The notes under the pieces were generated by a model, which saw only the letters and a list, made by a program, of their open reading frames with translations, was not told where the DNA came from and made no database searches. DNA of 64,000 nucleotides, taken from NCBI GenBank assembly GCA_024638265.1, contig JAHEKQ010000007.1, forward strand, positions 1-64,000, written 5' to 3'. Positions 15,614 through 60,382 of the stretch are shown piece after piece. The translations under genes were made by a program, and so were the position numbers. Within the stretch, counting starts at the first letter, position 1. The number at the start of each line of letters is the position of its first letter. The stretch is from Flammeovirgaceae bacterium. GTDB lineage: Bacteria; Bacteroidota; Bacteroidia; Cytophagales; Cyclobacteriaceae.

Positions 15614-16715
15614 ATGACCACAGACCAACTGAAAGATTTAAAGGCTCGCGTTAATGCCTTGAGGAGGTACCTTTGACTACGATAACAAAGTTGCCGAGAT
15701 AGAAGACCAGGAACTCGTCACTGCCCAGCCAGGGTTCTGGGATGACCCCAAAGAAGCGGAGAAAGTACTCCACCAGATACGATCTAAAAAAGTATGGACG
15801 GAGAGCTTCGATAAAGTTCAGACTCTTGTCGATGACGTAGATACTTTTTTTGAGTTTCTCCAGGAAGATGAGGTCCAGGAAAGTGAGGTGGATGCAGCTT
15901 ATGATAAGGCCGTTAAGGACCTTGAAGCATTGGAATTCAAAAAGATGCTCAGCAATGAAGAGGATCAGTTGAGCGCGATGATCGAGATTAATCCCGGTGC
16001 TGGTGGAACCGAAAGCCAGGACTGGGCTGATATGATCAACCGTATGTATATTATGTGGGCAGAGAAAAACGGATACCAGGTCCGCCAGGTTAACTACCAG
16101 GCCGGGGATACCGCCGGAATTAAGTCTGCCACGCTGGAAGTGGAAGGTGATTTTGCCTATGGATTCCTCAAATCTGAAATCGGGGTCCACAGGCTGGTAC
16201 GGATCAGCCCATTTGATTCGGGGGGGCGAAGGCATACTTCGTTCGCTTCTGTATATGTATACCCCGTGGTAGATGACACCATCGAGATAGAAGTTAATCC
16301 TGCCGATATACGATGGGATACCTATCGATCCGGCGGAAAAGGTGGGCAGAATGTCAACAAGGTGGAAACCGCAGTCCGGCTTCACCACGACCCCAGTGGA
16401 ATAATCATTGAATGTCAACAGGAGAGGTCACAGCTGCAGAATAAGGAAAAAGCCATTAAAATGCTGAAATCACAGCTTTACCAGCGTGAGATTGAAAAGC
16501 GCAATGCCGCCCGTGACGAGATTGAGAGTGGTAAAATGAAGATTGATTTCGGCTCCCAGATAAGGAACTATGTCCTACACCCTTACAAATTGGTAAAAGA
16601 CGCCCGAACCAACATCGAACGCTCTGATGTGCAGAATGTGTTGGATGGTGATTTGGAGGAGTTTCAGAAAGGCTTTCTTCTTGCTTCGCAAGAAGAAGTG
16701 AATAGTGGAAAGTAG
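15614..16715 (+). CDS. prfB: Peptide chain release factor 2, expressed by programmed +1 frameshift
   Basis: RF2 recognises UGA and UAA and triggers peptide release. The gene starts at ATG 15614 ([20 protein letters not shown]) and meets TGA at 15674 after 20 codons. A +1 shift at CTT-TGA-C continues as [13 protein letters not shown] from 15675. The full product is about 366 residues, the family's usual length; without the frameshift only a headless ORF from 15888 would be seen. The SPF stop-codon recognition motif is at about residues 198-200 and GGQ at 243-245. The last codons and the TAG stop (Ser-Gly-Lys-stop) come from the inverted arm of the adjoining cassette. Confidence 0.97.
15662..15677 (+). 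promoter_or_regulatory. RF2 autoregulatory +1 frameshift site
   Basis: AGGAGG-TAC-CTT-TGA-C: a perfect Shine-Dalgarno-like hexamer (15662-15667), a three-base spacer, the slippery CTT codon, the in-frame UGA and a following C. This is the classic arrangement by which low RF2 levels promote frameshifting and so RF2 synthesis. Confidence 0.95.
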
Positions 16716-16795
16716 AAAGTGTTGAGTGTTGAGTATTTAGTTATGAGTAAGTAGAAAAGAGGGATGAGGGATGAGGGATGAGGGATGAGTACTCA
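16705..16795. repeat. Phase-locked degenerate heptad array, left arm of cassette 1
   Basis: Thirteen consecutive 7-bp units, most starting with G and ending with A: GTGGAAA, GTAGAAA, GTGTTGA twice, three degenerate units, GAAAAGA, GGGATGA four times (16761-16788), then GTACTCA. The unit changes but the 7-bp phase is kept. It contains the prfB stop codon at its left end and touches the stop of the S23-type gene at its right end. Confidence 0.85.
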
Positions 16796-17161
16796 CCTTA
16801 TTTGCTTTGAATTCTTTTGAGCAGTTAGGATCGATTGGGTTGTCATTGCGATTAATTCCTTACATTCTTTTTGAGCACTTCCAATACGTTGAGATCTTTT
16901 AGATAGATTACTACCTGCAATAATTCTTAAGTTCATTGAGGTTTCATGTAATTCTTTCAAAGATAATTTCAATTTATGTATAAAGTCTCGCCTTGATTCA
17001 GCACCTTTTGCTTCTCCATAGTTTAAGGCGGAAGACAAAGCCGATCGTATTATTTGATTTTGTAGATAGATTCCAACTTCGGTTTTTTCAAATGTTTTTG
17101 CTACTTCAATAATTGAGATTGAAAATTCCACTATTCGGTCTTCAAGCTGATATTTTTTCAT
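16793..17161 (-). CDS. Four-helix bundle protein (S23/IVP family, Avd-like)
   Basis: A 122-residue, fully helical protein of the family found inside intervening sequences of 23S rRNA genes and related to Avd of diversity-generating retroelements. Characteristic sequences are YQLEDRIVEFS at the start, NQIIRSALSSALNYGEA, and KGAESRRDFIHKLKLSLKELHET. Characterised relatives form basic pentameric barrels that can bind nucleic acid; the role of stand-alone copies is not known. A close paralogue lies at 35568-35942 in the same kind of surroundings. No promoter is evident; the upstream 130 bp is AT-rich. Confidence 0.9.
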   Translation of the reverse strand: MKKYQLEDRIVEFSISIIEVAKTFEKTEVGIYLQNQIIRSALSSALNYGEAKGAESRRDFIHKLKLSLKELHETSMNLRIIAGSNLSKRSQRIGSAQKECKELIAMTTQSILTAQKNSKQIR

Positions 17162-17287
17162 ACCTCAATATCAATTATATCGCGGATATAAAACCATATG
17201 TTAATACTGAAAACAGCTCTGAAGACTTAAATTCGATGAAAGCGTTTGATTAAATTGAGTGATTTTACTCAACACACTTAAACTAAA

Positions 17288-18801
<1,514 letters not shown>

Positions 18802-29321: not shown

Positions 29322-29333
29322 AGGATTAAAGGC

Positions 29334-29459
29334 TATCACCTATCACCTATCACCTATCACCTATCACCTATCACCTATCACCTATCACCTATCACCTATC
29401 ACCCACAGCCCATTACCTACCATCCCCAACTGTTAGTTGTTAGCTGTTAACTGTTAGTT
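29334..29459. repeat. TATCACC x10 array grading into GTTAGTT heptads
   Basis: Ten perfect TATCACC units (29334-29403), then CACAGCC, CATTACC, TACCATC, CCCAACT, and GTTAGTT, GTTAGCT, GTTAACT, GTTAGTT (29432-29459). Eighteen units in one unbroken 7-bp phase although the unit changes completely. It ends 4 bp before the stop of the convergent small gene. The GTTAGTT part is an inverted relative of 10356-10383. Confidence 0.9.
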
Positions 29460-34897: not shown

Positions 34898-35509
34898 ATG
34901 GAACTATTTAATCTCGGAATAAAATCAATCTTTGTCGAAAACATGATCTTCGCATACTTCCTTGGAATGTGTTCATTCCTGGCGGTATCCAAGAAGGTCT
35001 CCACGGCTATCGGCCTGGGTGCGGCGGTAATCTTTGTACTCACCATCACGGTTCCCCTTGACTGGATAATCCAGGAATACGTCCTGAAAGAAGGAGCATT
35101 GGCATGGATGGGACCCCAGTTCGCTGAAACCAACCTGGAGTTTCTCTCATTCATACTTTTCATCGCGGTAATTGCCTCTATGGTACAGCTCGTTGAAATG
35201 ATCATTGAAAAAATATCTCCGGCCCTCTATGGATCACTGGGTATTTTCCTTCCCCTTATTGCCGTAAACTGTGCAATCCTCGGATCTTCCCTCTTTATGG
35301 TTCAGCGAGATTACACGTTTGCAGAAGCTACCGTATTTGGGTTCTCTTCAGGAATTGGATGGTTGCTGGCAATTGTAGCGCTCGCCGCTATCAGGGAAAA
35401 ATTGAAATACTCCAACGTGCCCGACGGACTCAAGGGACTTGGCTTGACCATGCTGATCACAGGCTTGATGGGATTGGCGTTTAAGTCGTTTATCGGTTTG
35501 GCAGTTTAG
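34898..35509 (+). CDS. nqrE: Na+-translocating NADH:quinone reductase subunit E
   Basis: Integral membrane subunit with six helices, homologous to RnfA. Conserved parts: [25 protein letters not shown] (with the conserved Cys), [32 protein letters not shown], and the C-terminal [19 protein letters not shown]. 203 residues. The operon ends here: nqrF, which encodes the NADH-oxidising FAD/2Fe-2S subunit and normally follows, is missing, and the second four-helix-bundle cassette begins directly after the stop codon. Confidence 0.96.
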
Positions 35510-35518
35510 GAAGAAAAA

Positions 35519-35546
35519 GTGCAGAGTGTAGAGTGTAAAGTGTAAA
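35519..35546. repeat. GTGTAAA-type heptads, left arm of cassette 2
   Basis: Four 7-bp units, GTGCAGA, GTGTAGA, GTGTAAA, GTGTAAA, starting 9 bp after the nqrE stop. The inverted counterpart at 36163-36183 has three units. Confidence 0.85.
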
Positions 35547-35567
35547 TCTATCTTAGAACTTAAAAGT

Positions 35568-35942
35568 CTATTGAGTACCAAGAGCACGACTGTTTTTCTT
35601 AGCCGTTAGAATAGATTTTGAAACGATTGCAATGAGCTCCCTGCACTCATCAAGACTACTGTTTATTCCATTTTTATCTTTAGTAATTTCACAGCCTTCT
35701 ATAATCCTAAGCGTAACTGATGTCTCATGCAGTTCCTTAAGTGATATTTTTAGCTTATGAATGAAATCCCGCCTGGATTCGGCTCCCTTTGCCTCGCCGT
35801 AATTCAAAGATGAGGAAATTGCAGACCTGGCTATTTGATTCGCCAGATATTTCCCTACGTCCGATTGTTCAAAAGTTTTTATGCAGTTAATAATTTGAAC
35901 AGAAAATTTAATAAGTCGGTCTTCAAGTTTGTACTCTTTCAT
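35568..35942 (-). CDS. Four-helix bundle protein (S23/IVP family), paralogue of 16793-17161
   Basis: A 124-residue, all-helical protein clearly paralogous to the one in cassette 1; both share NYGEAKGAESRRDFIHKLK and SLKELHET, with drift mainly near the C-terminus. The family is known from 23S rRNA intervening sequences and, as Avd, from diversity-generating retroelements; no reverse transcriptase or variable repeat is present here. Function of free-standing copies is unknown. It may bind nucleic acid given the basic surface-type residues, but that is inference from relatives. Confidence 0.9.
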   Translation of the reverse strand: MKEYKLEDRLIKFSVQIINCIKTFEQSDVGKYLANQIARSAISSSLNYGEAKGAESRRDFIHKLKISLKELHETSVTLRIIEGCEITKDKNGINSSLDECRELIAIVSKSILTAKKNSRALGTQ

Positions 35943-36081
35943 AGTTAGTTTTTTTTCTTAAAACTAACTGCTCCCAAACTTCTGGTGATATTAGGAAAAA
36001 CTGAAAGTGTGCCTAGTTCCCAAATGGAAACATTTTGTATTAATAAATTGATTGAATCCCCTCAGATCTCTCCTCGCTCCT

Positions 36082-36188
36082 CACCCTCACCCTCACCCTT
36101 ACCTTCACCCTCATCCCCCTGATCCCAAATTCCTCATTCCTCATTTTCACTTCCCAGTTAGATTTACACTTTACACTCTGCACTTTTC
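36082..36188. repeat. CACCCT hexads and CATTCCT/TTTACAC heptads, right arm of cassette 2
   Basis: A 6-bp-period stretch (TCACCC type, about 36082-36117), then 7-bp units AATTCCT, CATTCCT, CATTTTC, two degenerate units, TTTACAC twice (36163-36176), TCTGCAC and TTTTCAC. The period changes from 6 to 7 within one array. Confidence 0.75.
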
Positions 36189-36199
36189 ACTCTTACTTC

Positions 36200-36745
36200 T
36201 CACAGCCCCGAAACTCCTCCACTCACAATAAACTTCATCGCATCCGGGCCTTTGAAGGGGAGTTCGCGAACATGGCTTTTTGGAACCAGGAAATGGTTCC
36301 CTGAGAAATTATAACTGTGGGGAAGGTATACGGATACCAAATCACCTAATCCAAAGGCATCGAGGCTTTCCCGGGTAATAAATCCCATTTTAAATACTTT
36401 GCCACTATCATCCAGTTGCACAAGAACGGGTTTGTCGAATTTCTTTTTTTCACCGACAAAGGCTCCCACCAGGTCTTTCATGCTGGTATAAAGCAGGTTA
36501 ACAAACGGGATGCTAACCAGGGCTTTTTCAAACCATTTGAATATGGGGCGGGTAAGAAAGAAAGAAGTGAGCGCTCCAATTAAGGTGACGCCTATGATCA
36601 AAACGGCAAAGCCGGCGCCGGGCCATGGAATTTGAAGTAAGCCATCGATCCACTGAATAGTCATGAATAGGACATATACAGTAATGGCCAGGGGAACGGT
36701 GATCAAAAGACCCCGGAAGAAGAAGGATGCGATCTTGGTTTTCAT
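36200..36745 (-). CDS. DUF502 family membrane protein
   Basis: A 181-residue inner-membrane protein with two N-terminal helices (FFFRGLLITVPLAITVYVLF, FAVLIIGVTLIGALTSFFL) and a conserved soluble part (SIPFVNLLYTSMKDLVGAF, KFDKPVLVQ, LVSVYLPHSYNFSGNHFLVP). The family is widespread and uncharacterised. It is divergent from the membrane protein at 36872 and convergent with nqrE across cassette 2. Confidence 0.88.
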   Translation of the reverse strand: MKTKIASFFFRGLLITVPLAITVYVLFMTIQWIDGLLQIPWPGAGFAVLIIGVTLIGALTSFFLTRPIFKWFEKALVSIPFVNLLYTSMKDLVGAFVGEKKKFDKPVLVQLDDSGKVFKMGFITRESLDAFGLGDLVSVYLPHSYNFSGNHFLVPKSHVRELPFKGPDAMKFIVSGGVSGL

Positions 36746-40778: not shown

Positions 40779-40837
40779 TGCAGCTTTTTTTGGTTAGATG
40801 CAATTTCCAGACCGAAGGTTTAAAGTTTGGAGGTGGA

Positions 40838-40967
40838 TGGGTTTATGGGTAGATGGGTTGAAGGGTTGAAGGGTTGAAGGGTTGAAGGGAAGTAAGGTTG
40901 TAAGGTAGCAGGGTAGTAGGGTTGTAACTTTTAACTTTTACCTTTTGCCTTCTGCCTTTTTACTTCC
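40838..40967. repeat. GGGTTGAA octads and AACTTTT heptads upstream of DUF1800 and at the mnmA end
   Basis: An 8-bp array (four GGGTTGAA units around 40855-40888 with degenerate flanks), then heptads AACTTTT twice, ACCTTTT, GCCTTCT, GCCTTTT, TACTTCC (40926-40967). The mnmA stop codon (40960-40962) lies inside. The heptad part is the inverted relative of 59142-59190. Confidence 0.85.
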
Positions 40968-60101: not shown

Positions 60102-60283
60102 AAATTCAAATTGGAATGGGCTAACTATTAATAAAATGAGAATGACCAGGATTAGAATTGTATCCCTAAATCTGAGAATTCGATCGATTGGATAACAGAA
60201 ACCTTTATTGGAGACAAATGGATCCCCCGTGGCAGTGGTGGAAACACAGTGGCCATCAAGGATTGGAATTTCTCAGCTCGTAA

Positions 60284-60382
60284 TTGAACGTTCGTTCAAT
60301 TACGATTCAATAATTGAACACTTGTTCAACTTTCTATGATAATAAATTGAACGTTTGTTCAATTCGTTGAACGATCGTTCAA
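60284..60382. promoter_or_regulatory. Array of four TTGAACR-NN-YGTTCAA palindromes (putative operators)
   Basis: Four 16-bp palindromes: TTGAACG-TT-CGTTCAA (60284-60299), TTGAACA-CT-TGTTCAA (60314-60329), TTGAACG-TT-TGTTCAA (60347-60362), TTGAACG-AT-CGTTCAA (60367-60382). Start-to-start distances are 30, 33 and 20 bp. The arms are fixed while the central two bases vary, as in TetR-type operators. They lie 48 bp upstream of the lipoprotein ATG. No regulator gene is near. The rest of the 328-bp gap (60102-60283) holds no gene I can support apart from the remnant noted separately. Confidence 0.75.

Follow-up and report, generated by a model that had tools for sequence, protein, structure and literature searches.

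S23 genes between inverted heptad arms: cassettes resembling a little-known type of selfish hairpin element

In the DNA analysed here (the window, 64,000 nucleotides from a Flammeovirgaceae genome of 3.6 Mb in 173 contigs), the gap between nqrE, which ends at 35509, and a DUF502 protein gene, which ends at 36200, holds a small S23-type gene with arrays of 7-bp repeats on either side. This raises the question of whether the gene and its arrays form a defined element and, if so, of what kind. A preliminary description, made from the sequence alone, had proposed an S23-type gene between convergent neighbours with inverted 7-bp arrays on both sides, and this layout is confirmed (Table 1). The protein is a member of the family, as its PF05635 profile search score of 52.7 bits lies above the curated cut-off of 33.8. 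It exhibits only this domain in Pfam, and neither a nuclease nor a transposase domain was found there. The two arms are 56 bp long each, inverted, and identical at 46 of 56 positions in an ungapped alignment, and the match between them runs on into non-heptad sequence on the S23 side. Both comprise four AGTGnnn heptads, so the difference of one 7-bp unit (four against three) described earlier was wrong. In the RNA read in the S23 sense, the arms are predicted to form a closing stem around the ORF (-188.6 kcal/mol, z -5.6 with 20 shuffles); a single arm taken alone shows no significant fold (z 0.30).

Table 1. Features of the two S23 cassettes of the window and their neighbours
Feature	Position	Strand	Remarks
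S23 cassette	35510-36199		fills the nqrE-DUF502 gap, stop codon to stop codon
S23 gene, 124 aa (PF05635, 23S_rRNA_IVP)	35568-35942	minus	PF05635 profile match 5.7e-14
Upstream arm (read on the S23 strand)	36144-36199	minus	four AGTGnnn heptads; distance 0 to DUF502 stop codon 36200-36202
Downstream arm, inverted copy	35510-35565	plus	adjoins nqrE stop codon TAG 35507-35509
6-bp array (CCTCAC)	36079-36113		inside the cassette, between upstream arm and S23 start
nqrE (Rnf-Nqr subunit)	34898-35509	plus	PF02508; neighbour, outside the element
DUF502 protein gene	36200-36745	minus	PF04367; neighbour, upstream of S23, same direction as S23
Sister S23 gene, first cassette of the window	16793-17161	minus	64% identical to the S23 at 35568-35942
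Sister downstream arm	16690-16734	plus	overlaps the 3' end of a convergent gene for a peptide chain release factor (PF00472; stop 16713-16715)
Sister inverted partner arm	17276-17320	minus	overlaps an ACTTTCT array at 17289-17361

The two neighbours are arranged differently in other genomes. In 11 relatives, nqrE and the DUF502 gene are close together on one contig, with DUF502 behind nqrE and codirectional; the gaps, read by hand, are about 20-300 bp in nine of them and about 1.2 kb in two. Relative to these genomes, DUF502 in the window is flipped to the convergent direction and the S23 cassette lies in between (34898-36745), and the heptad arms may have served this inversion. As a consequence of the flip, no comparable empty counterpart of the locus was found among the relatives.

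With regard to the protein, the AlphaFold model of the window S23 has a mean pLDDT of 92.3 and shows four helices, the S23-type four-helix-bundle fold. Its best Foldseek matches are the S23 structures 2rld and 2gsc, with E-values down to 3.5e-5. The model also matches Avd, the accessory protein of diversity-generating retroelements, in 4dwl (TM 0.70-0.77) and in the ribonucleoprotein 8ub7 (TM 0.72-0.80), with E-values of just about 0.07-0.11. Avd is a pentamer. No reverse transcriptase was found in the two neighbours scanned beside the window S23, nqrE and DUF502.

The nearest known counterparts of the cassette are the intervening sequences (IVSs) of 23S rRNA. Such sequences have been known since about 1990; they carry an S23 gene in Leptospira and occur as short hairpins without an ORF in Salmonella, a pair of states which parallels the hairpin-only and S23-bearing states described below. 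In Coxiella, the S23 ORF of the IVS is enclosed by a 28-bp terminal stem, and two or three tandem heptamers (GACAGAT) plus a degenerate one lie 5' of the ORF, RNase III cutting at the first (PMC4990558). The same report suggests that the Coxiella S23 protein is not made in vivo and that its ORF is decaying, and describes it as unclear what 23S intervening sequences and S23 proteins do and where they come from (PMC4990558). The window cassette shares with these IVSs an S23 ORF within a terminal inverted-repeat stem and, with that of Coxiella, tandem heptamers, which are not known to be general among IVSs and are here placed at the 5' end and repeated in the opposite arm. In contrast, 23S IVSs reside in helix 45 of 23S rRNA, whereas the host here is mRNA or intergenic DNA: the window cassette is flanked by nqrE and DUF502, and a scan with one 23S motif found no 23S location in the window or in loci L001-L258. 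Also unlike the 23S IVSs, the arms described here vary with the S23 lineage, and copies lacking S23 are dispersed in the genome.

A first survey covered the source genome together with 38 related genomes from its family and order. PF05635 matches were present in 32 of these 39 genomes, and loci were taken from most of the longer matches, which gave 116 S23 ORFs, 113 of them with enough flanking DNA. To score the arms, each 400-bp flank was aligned locally with the opposite one in reverse complement, and the best alignment had to reach a score of at least 28. This value was reached by 62 of the 113 S23 ORFs; among control genes from these loci it was reached by 11 of 510 (Fisher p about 2e-42), and among 1125 permuted flank pairs by 2.0%. 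The remaining 51 S23 genes have no arms above the threshold, and repeats in direct orientation reach it in 21 of the 113. In the source genome itself, inverted arrays flank six of the eight scorable S23 genes, a ninth having been left out because a contig end cuts its flank. The check proposed in the preliminary description, a genome-wide count of S23 genes set against unrelated genes, thus came out in favour of its claim of a defined element rather than chance, which is strongly supported.

A second survey, of named genomes, gave inverted arms at 45 of the 78 scorable loci among 80, with 5.2% of 1533 permuted pairs as control; the patterns used to find its loci came from a single S23 subfamily, toward which the set is biased. 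In Flavobacterium, inverted arms were present at 37 of 50 S23 loci in 32 genomes, and in a further S23 set, which overlaps the first survey, at 22 of 30. The period of the arms is usually seven: it was the best period in 47 of the 62 arm-bearing loci of the first survey and in 39 of the 45 of the second, where the mean autocorrelation of the arms is 0.68 at lag 7 and 0.23-0.31 at other lags. Period-7 arrays are also 13 times denser near S23 than away from it at the same loci (74 in 123 kb against 47 in 1.02 Mb). A 368-kb sample of five genomes lacking a PF05635 match held none, compared with seven in 400 kb sampled from five S23-bearing genomes (one-sided p 0.01). Arrays of period 8 are enriched near S23 as well (19 near it against 16 farther away, where about eight times more DNA was covered, at loci L039-L138 of the relatives), and these octads are perhaps a length variant of the repeat unit.

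The arrays are short and degenerate, lie in AT-rich gaps and vary in repeat number, as would be expected if slippage in low-complexity intergenic DNA, or chance, had produced them with no link to S23. This origin is hardly tenable, however, and was rejected on the counts: few or no such arrays occur at control genes, in permuted flanks, at periods other than seven (eight excepted) or in the S23-negative sample. Moreover, the two arms of a cassette match and have a polarity, G exceeding C on the inward strand at 54 of 62 and 40 of 45 loci in the two surveys.

The placement of the cassettes is also regular. Neighbour orientation was scored at 102 loci, 11 of the 113 having been set aside for contig ends or distance. 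At 86 of these loci, the S23 gene follows a gene of the same orientation. Convergent neighbours, which had been taken as part of the design, are found at only 15, and a convergent cassette was rejected as the general layout. The upstream arm begins within 20 bp of the stop codon of the codirectional gene at 76 of 97 arm-bearing loci (median 2 bp), where uniform placement would give 47%. Both the sense orientation and the placement at stop codons could result from selection rather than from the mechanism of insertion.

At the window locus, which is convergent, the arms begin at both stop codons. This arrangement would be expected if each gene carried one heptad array at its 3' end, of a REP-like or terminator-like kind, so that two arrays face each other wherever genes converge, S23 merely lying in the gap. 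We consider this explanation unlikely. Only a minority of the arm-bearing S23 loci have convergent neighbours (36 ++, 7 -- and 11 +- among 54), and at the others the far arm therefore cannot belong to a convergent gene. The relation of the arms to the S23 protein, the variation at a single site and the dispersed arrays, described in turn below, also bear on it.

The arms of 107 loci were compared with the proteins that they enclose. Heptad 6-mers are common to the arms in 29 of 33 pairs of S23 proteins that are at least 70% identical, and in about 0.5% of 3976 pairs below 40% identity. Over all pairs, the rank correlation between arm and protein similarity is 0.11, a value above all 200 permutations and weak enough that the link holds only for close proteins. 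The correspondence between arms and S23 proteins to which the preliminary description had pointed therefore stands clearly among close relatives and is weak overall. Close pairs located at unrelated sites have common arms in nine of nine cases, across genera, eight of these pairs belonging to one S23 cluster, and such tracking of the protein at unrelated sites argues against a mere 3'-end feature. Just below 70% identity, the arms of L251 and L240 are not common. Between 60 and 70% identity, unrelated sites have common arms in 7 of 18 pairs, and among close pairs with homologous flanks, 4 of 24 have no common arms. Different S23 genes of one genome carry different arms, so the choice of arm is not a trait of the genome as a whole.

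The two cassettes of the window fall in the 60-70% zone. They had been presented as two independent loci within 64 kb, a claim that does not hold, as their S23 proteins are 64% identical. Their arm sets are both AGT-type by eye but have low 6-mer sharing (0.16). Outside its own genome, the nearest relatives of the window S23 are 43-49% identical and have other heptads, and arms are present at 6 of 11 S23 genes that are 37-49% identical to it.

A site at which different states can be compared is found in Flavobacterium, between a fadB-like gene, which encodes a 3-hydroxyacyl-CoA dehydrogenase, and a fadA-like thiolase gene; an acyl-CoA dehydrogenase gene adjoins them (Pfam assignments). BLAST with this fadB/fadA junction matched 197 of 199 Flavobacterium genomes; the best 70 of the 197 were read, and one was dropped because its spacer consists of N. 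Among the 69 junctions, 9 are empty, with 3-6 bp between stop and start codon and no array, 31 hold heptad hairpins without S23 (27 single, of 82-130 bp, and 4 double), 24, including the query, hold S23 and 5 hold other inserts. As the junctions were chosen by match strength, these counts of states are not frequencies, and the hairpin-only state was assigned visually on the basis of sequence and length, with alignments made for 13 of the 31. The other inserts (L308, L320, L337, L338 and L340) include a different small repeat and an ORF, which we take to resemble a DUF1016-type nuclease; in L308 and L320, the S23-type right arm is still present.

More than one S23 lineage occupies the fadB/fadA site, each with its own arm, which is AGTATTAAG or, in L183, L301, L304 and L316, TTGTATAATGTA. 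Arms that change with the S23 lineage at one site, and the nine empty sites devoid of any array, are both contrary to what a feature of the gene 3' end would give. A broken S23 copy, L232, is also found at this site.

The hairpins are related to S23 genes present elsewhere in the same genomes. One or more S23 genes were found in each of the 32 Flavobacterium genomes searched (24 hairpin-bearing and 8 empty at fadB/fadA), and in at least 18 of these, among the matches listed, one lies directly behind fadA, at the next junction. Heptads are present in the flanks of all 18, six of which are below the inverted-arm threshold. The fadB/fadA junction holds a hairpin in 17 of these 18 genomes, and in 16 of the 17 this hairpin is of the same heptad type as the S23 flanks at the next junction (11 AAGAAGC and 5 TAGAATA), the exception being G150, whose hairpin is unlike the flanks of its S23. 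These concordances are not independent, because the genomes were chosen by the analyst and are related, and shared ancestry can inflate the count. The AGA/UCU anchors show little or no variation across the 13 aligned hairpins. Of the 18 pairs, 5 have changed on both sides with pairing kept, few events lying behind these changes. Three single hairpins that were folded gave z values of -3.1, -2.9 and -7.5.

Hairpins with covarying pairs at an operon junction, the occupation of the same junction in many Flavobacterium species, an S23 gene with matching heptads in the same operon and the Avd-like fold could together point to a domesticated post-transcriptional regulator. S23 would then bind heptad hairpins both in its own mRNA and in others, and control the stability of these mRNAs or their processing by RNase III, for example in the fad operon, and the dispersed hairpins would be a regulon. 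We regard this as quite unlikely. Presence and absence vary between species at one site, different S23 lineages and a broken copy occur there, and PF05635 reaches 12-15 matches per genome; this site variation, decay and copy number make the turnover of a selfish element likelier than a regulon.

Arms are also dispersed without the gene. A search for AAGAAGC arrays, allowing two mismatches and counting overlapping matches, gave 11-64 matches in eight genomes with that S23 arm against 0-11 in eight others, and 0-7 for the pattern read backwards. In three Flavobacterium genomes (all matches in two and 62 of 64 in the third), the AAGAAGC matches form 62 clusters, of which 20 are inward pairs, 42 are single-stranded and none is purely outward. 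The window heptad, allowing three mismatches, has 61 matches in its own genome against 0-11 in 13 relatives. The same pattern read backwards gives the background level: it occurs 9 times in the source genome and 1-13 times in the relatives, in several of which it is as frequent as the forward one. Twenty-two dispersed loci of the source genome, the two window arms included, were read: 13 of them follow a stop codon at a distance of no more than 50 bp, and a strong inverted partner in the next 1.2 kb downstream is present only for the window pair, so the other copies read are solo arms.

These copies, mostly solo and often in the sense direction behind stop codons, resemble a 3'-end feature. 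Likewise, among 57 arrays away from S23, a same-strand stop codon precedes the array more often on its G-rich strand (22) than on its C-rich strand (12), with 4 on both. Both observations speak for that explanation, which we still regard as unlikely.

The reading that we favour, and hold to be fairly probable, is that of an IVS-type selfish element located in mRNA 3' regions, in which S23 is tied to its repeats much as RAYT is to REPINs. REP and REPIN sequences are short extragenic repeats, present as inverted pairs or singlets, with several types per genome and a different type beside each protein gene (PMC3116915). S23 appears to be similarly tied to dispersed repeats that occur as pairs or singlets, of several types per genome. 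In the three Flavobacterium genomes, the 20 inward pairs resemble REPIN doublets and the other 42 clusters are single, whereas the copies read in the source genome are solo. There are further differences: RAYT is a tyrosine (HUH) transposase and S23 a four-helix bundle, and the REPIN repeat is one palindromic 16-mer, whereas the S23 repeats are heptad arrays, many of them solo. Neither a target-site duplication nor movement was seen for the S23 elements. A search for relatives of the window S23 in viral contigs gave eight pattern matches, none of which was confirmed, and Rfam, applied to eight loci with E-values up to 0.1, returned just one tRNA and one leader below the gathering score.

For such an IVS-type element, the following scheme can be proposed. 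The cassette would be a discrete S23 element, a kind of 23S IVS that has been placed in mRNA 3' regions. In the S23-sense transcript, the heptad arms would pair into a long stem whose loop contains the S23 ORF. The S23 protein probably recognises the heptad sequence of its own lineage, which would most simply account for each S23 lineage having its own heptad. RNase III may release the arm stem, and copies may spread with the help of S23, by a route involving RNA or DNA. An RNA step is plausible given the bias toward the sense orientation and the Avd-like fold, although selection would give the same bias.

A wider generalisation is possible, but we put it forward with some doubt: S23/IVP proteins might be the specificity factors of widespread mobile RNA-hairpin elements, each reading a 7-nt stem code, perhaps as a pentamer like Avd, and the hairpins might travel with or without S23 to mRNA junctions directly behind stop codons, the 23S IVS being the special case in rRNA. 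If each S23 did bind and spread its own heptad hairpin, many "four helix bundle" genes and unexplained intergenic repeats of Bacteroidota would belong to one selfish or regulatory system acting on ordinary operon transcripts. A protein whose repeats change with it, together with sites in empty, hairpin and S23-bearing states, makes the binding and the spread by S23 of its own hairpin a directly testable question.

Heptamer arrays have been described before in this phylum. MacGregor (2015) reported intergenic TAACTGA arrays in Beggiatoaceae, Cyanobacteria and Bacteroidetes, those of some Bacteroidetes missing from the shorter gaps of relatives, and raised a possibly mobile repeat-binding protein whose identification was left for later (PMC4679880). 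These arrays differ from the S23 arms in being direct repeats of one sequence, located mostly just upstream of start codons in the main genome of that study, and S23 is absent from the main text of the paper (PMC4679880). S23 is a candidate for the heptamer-array binder raised there. In a literature search by title and opening of the abstract, with most subscription journals outside its scope, none of the papers listed showed a coupling of S23 to its heptad repeats.

Three further repeat arrays of the window deserve mention. At 29333-29457, ten CTATCAC units are followed by a TGTTAGC-type array; they lie behind a terminator-like stem, and the order of the arrays is opposite to that of the S23 arms. 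At 40832-40966, an octad array, GGGTTGAA, precedes a CTTTTAA-type heptad array, and the two are possibly a hairpin lacking S23. Finally, a tandem repeat of about 30 bp at 60281-60364, which contains TTGAACGNNCGTTCAA-like palindromes and is unlike the heptads, is perhaps an operator array.
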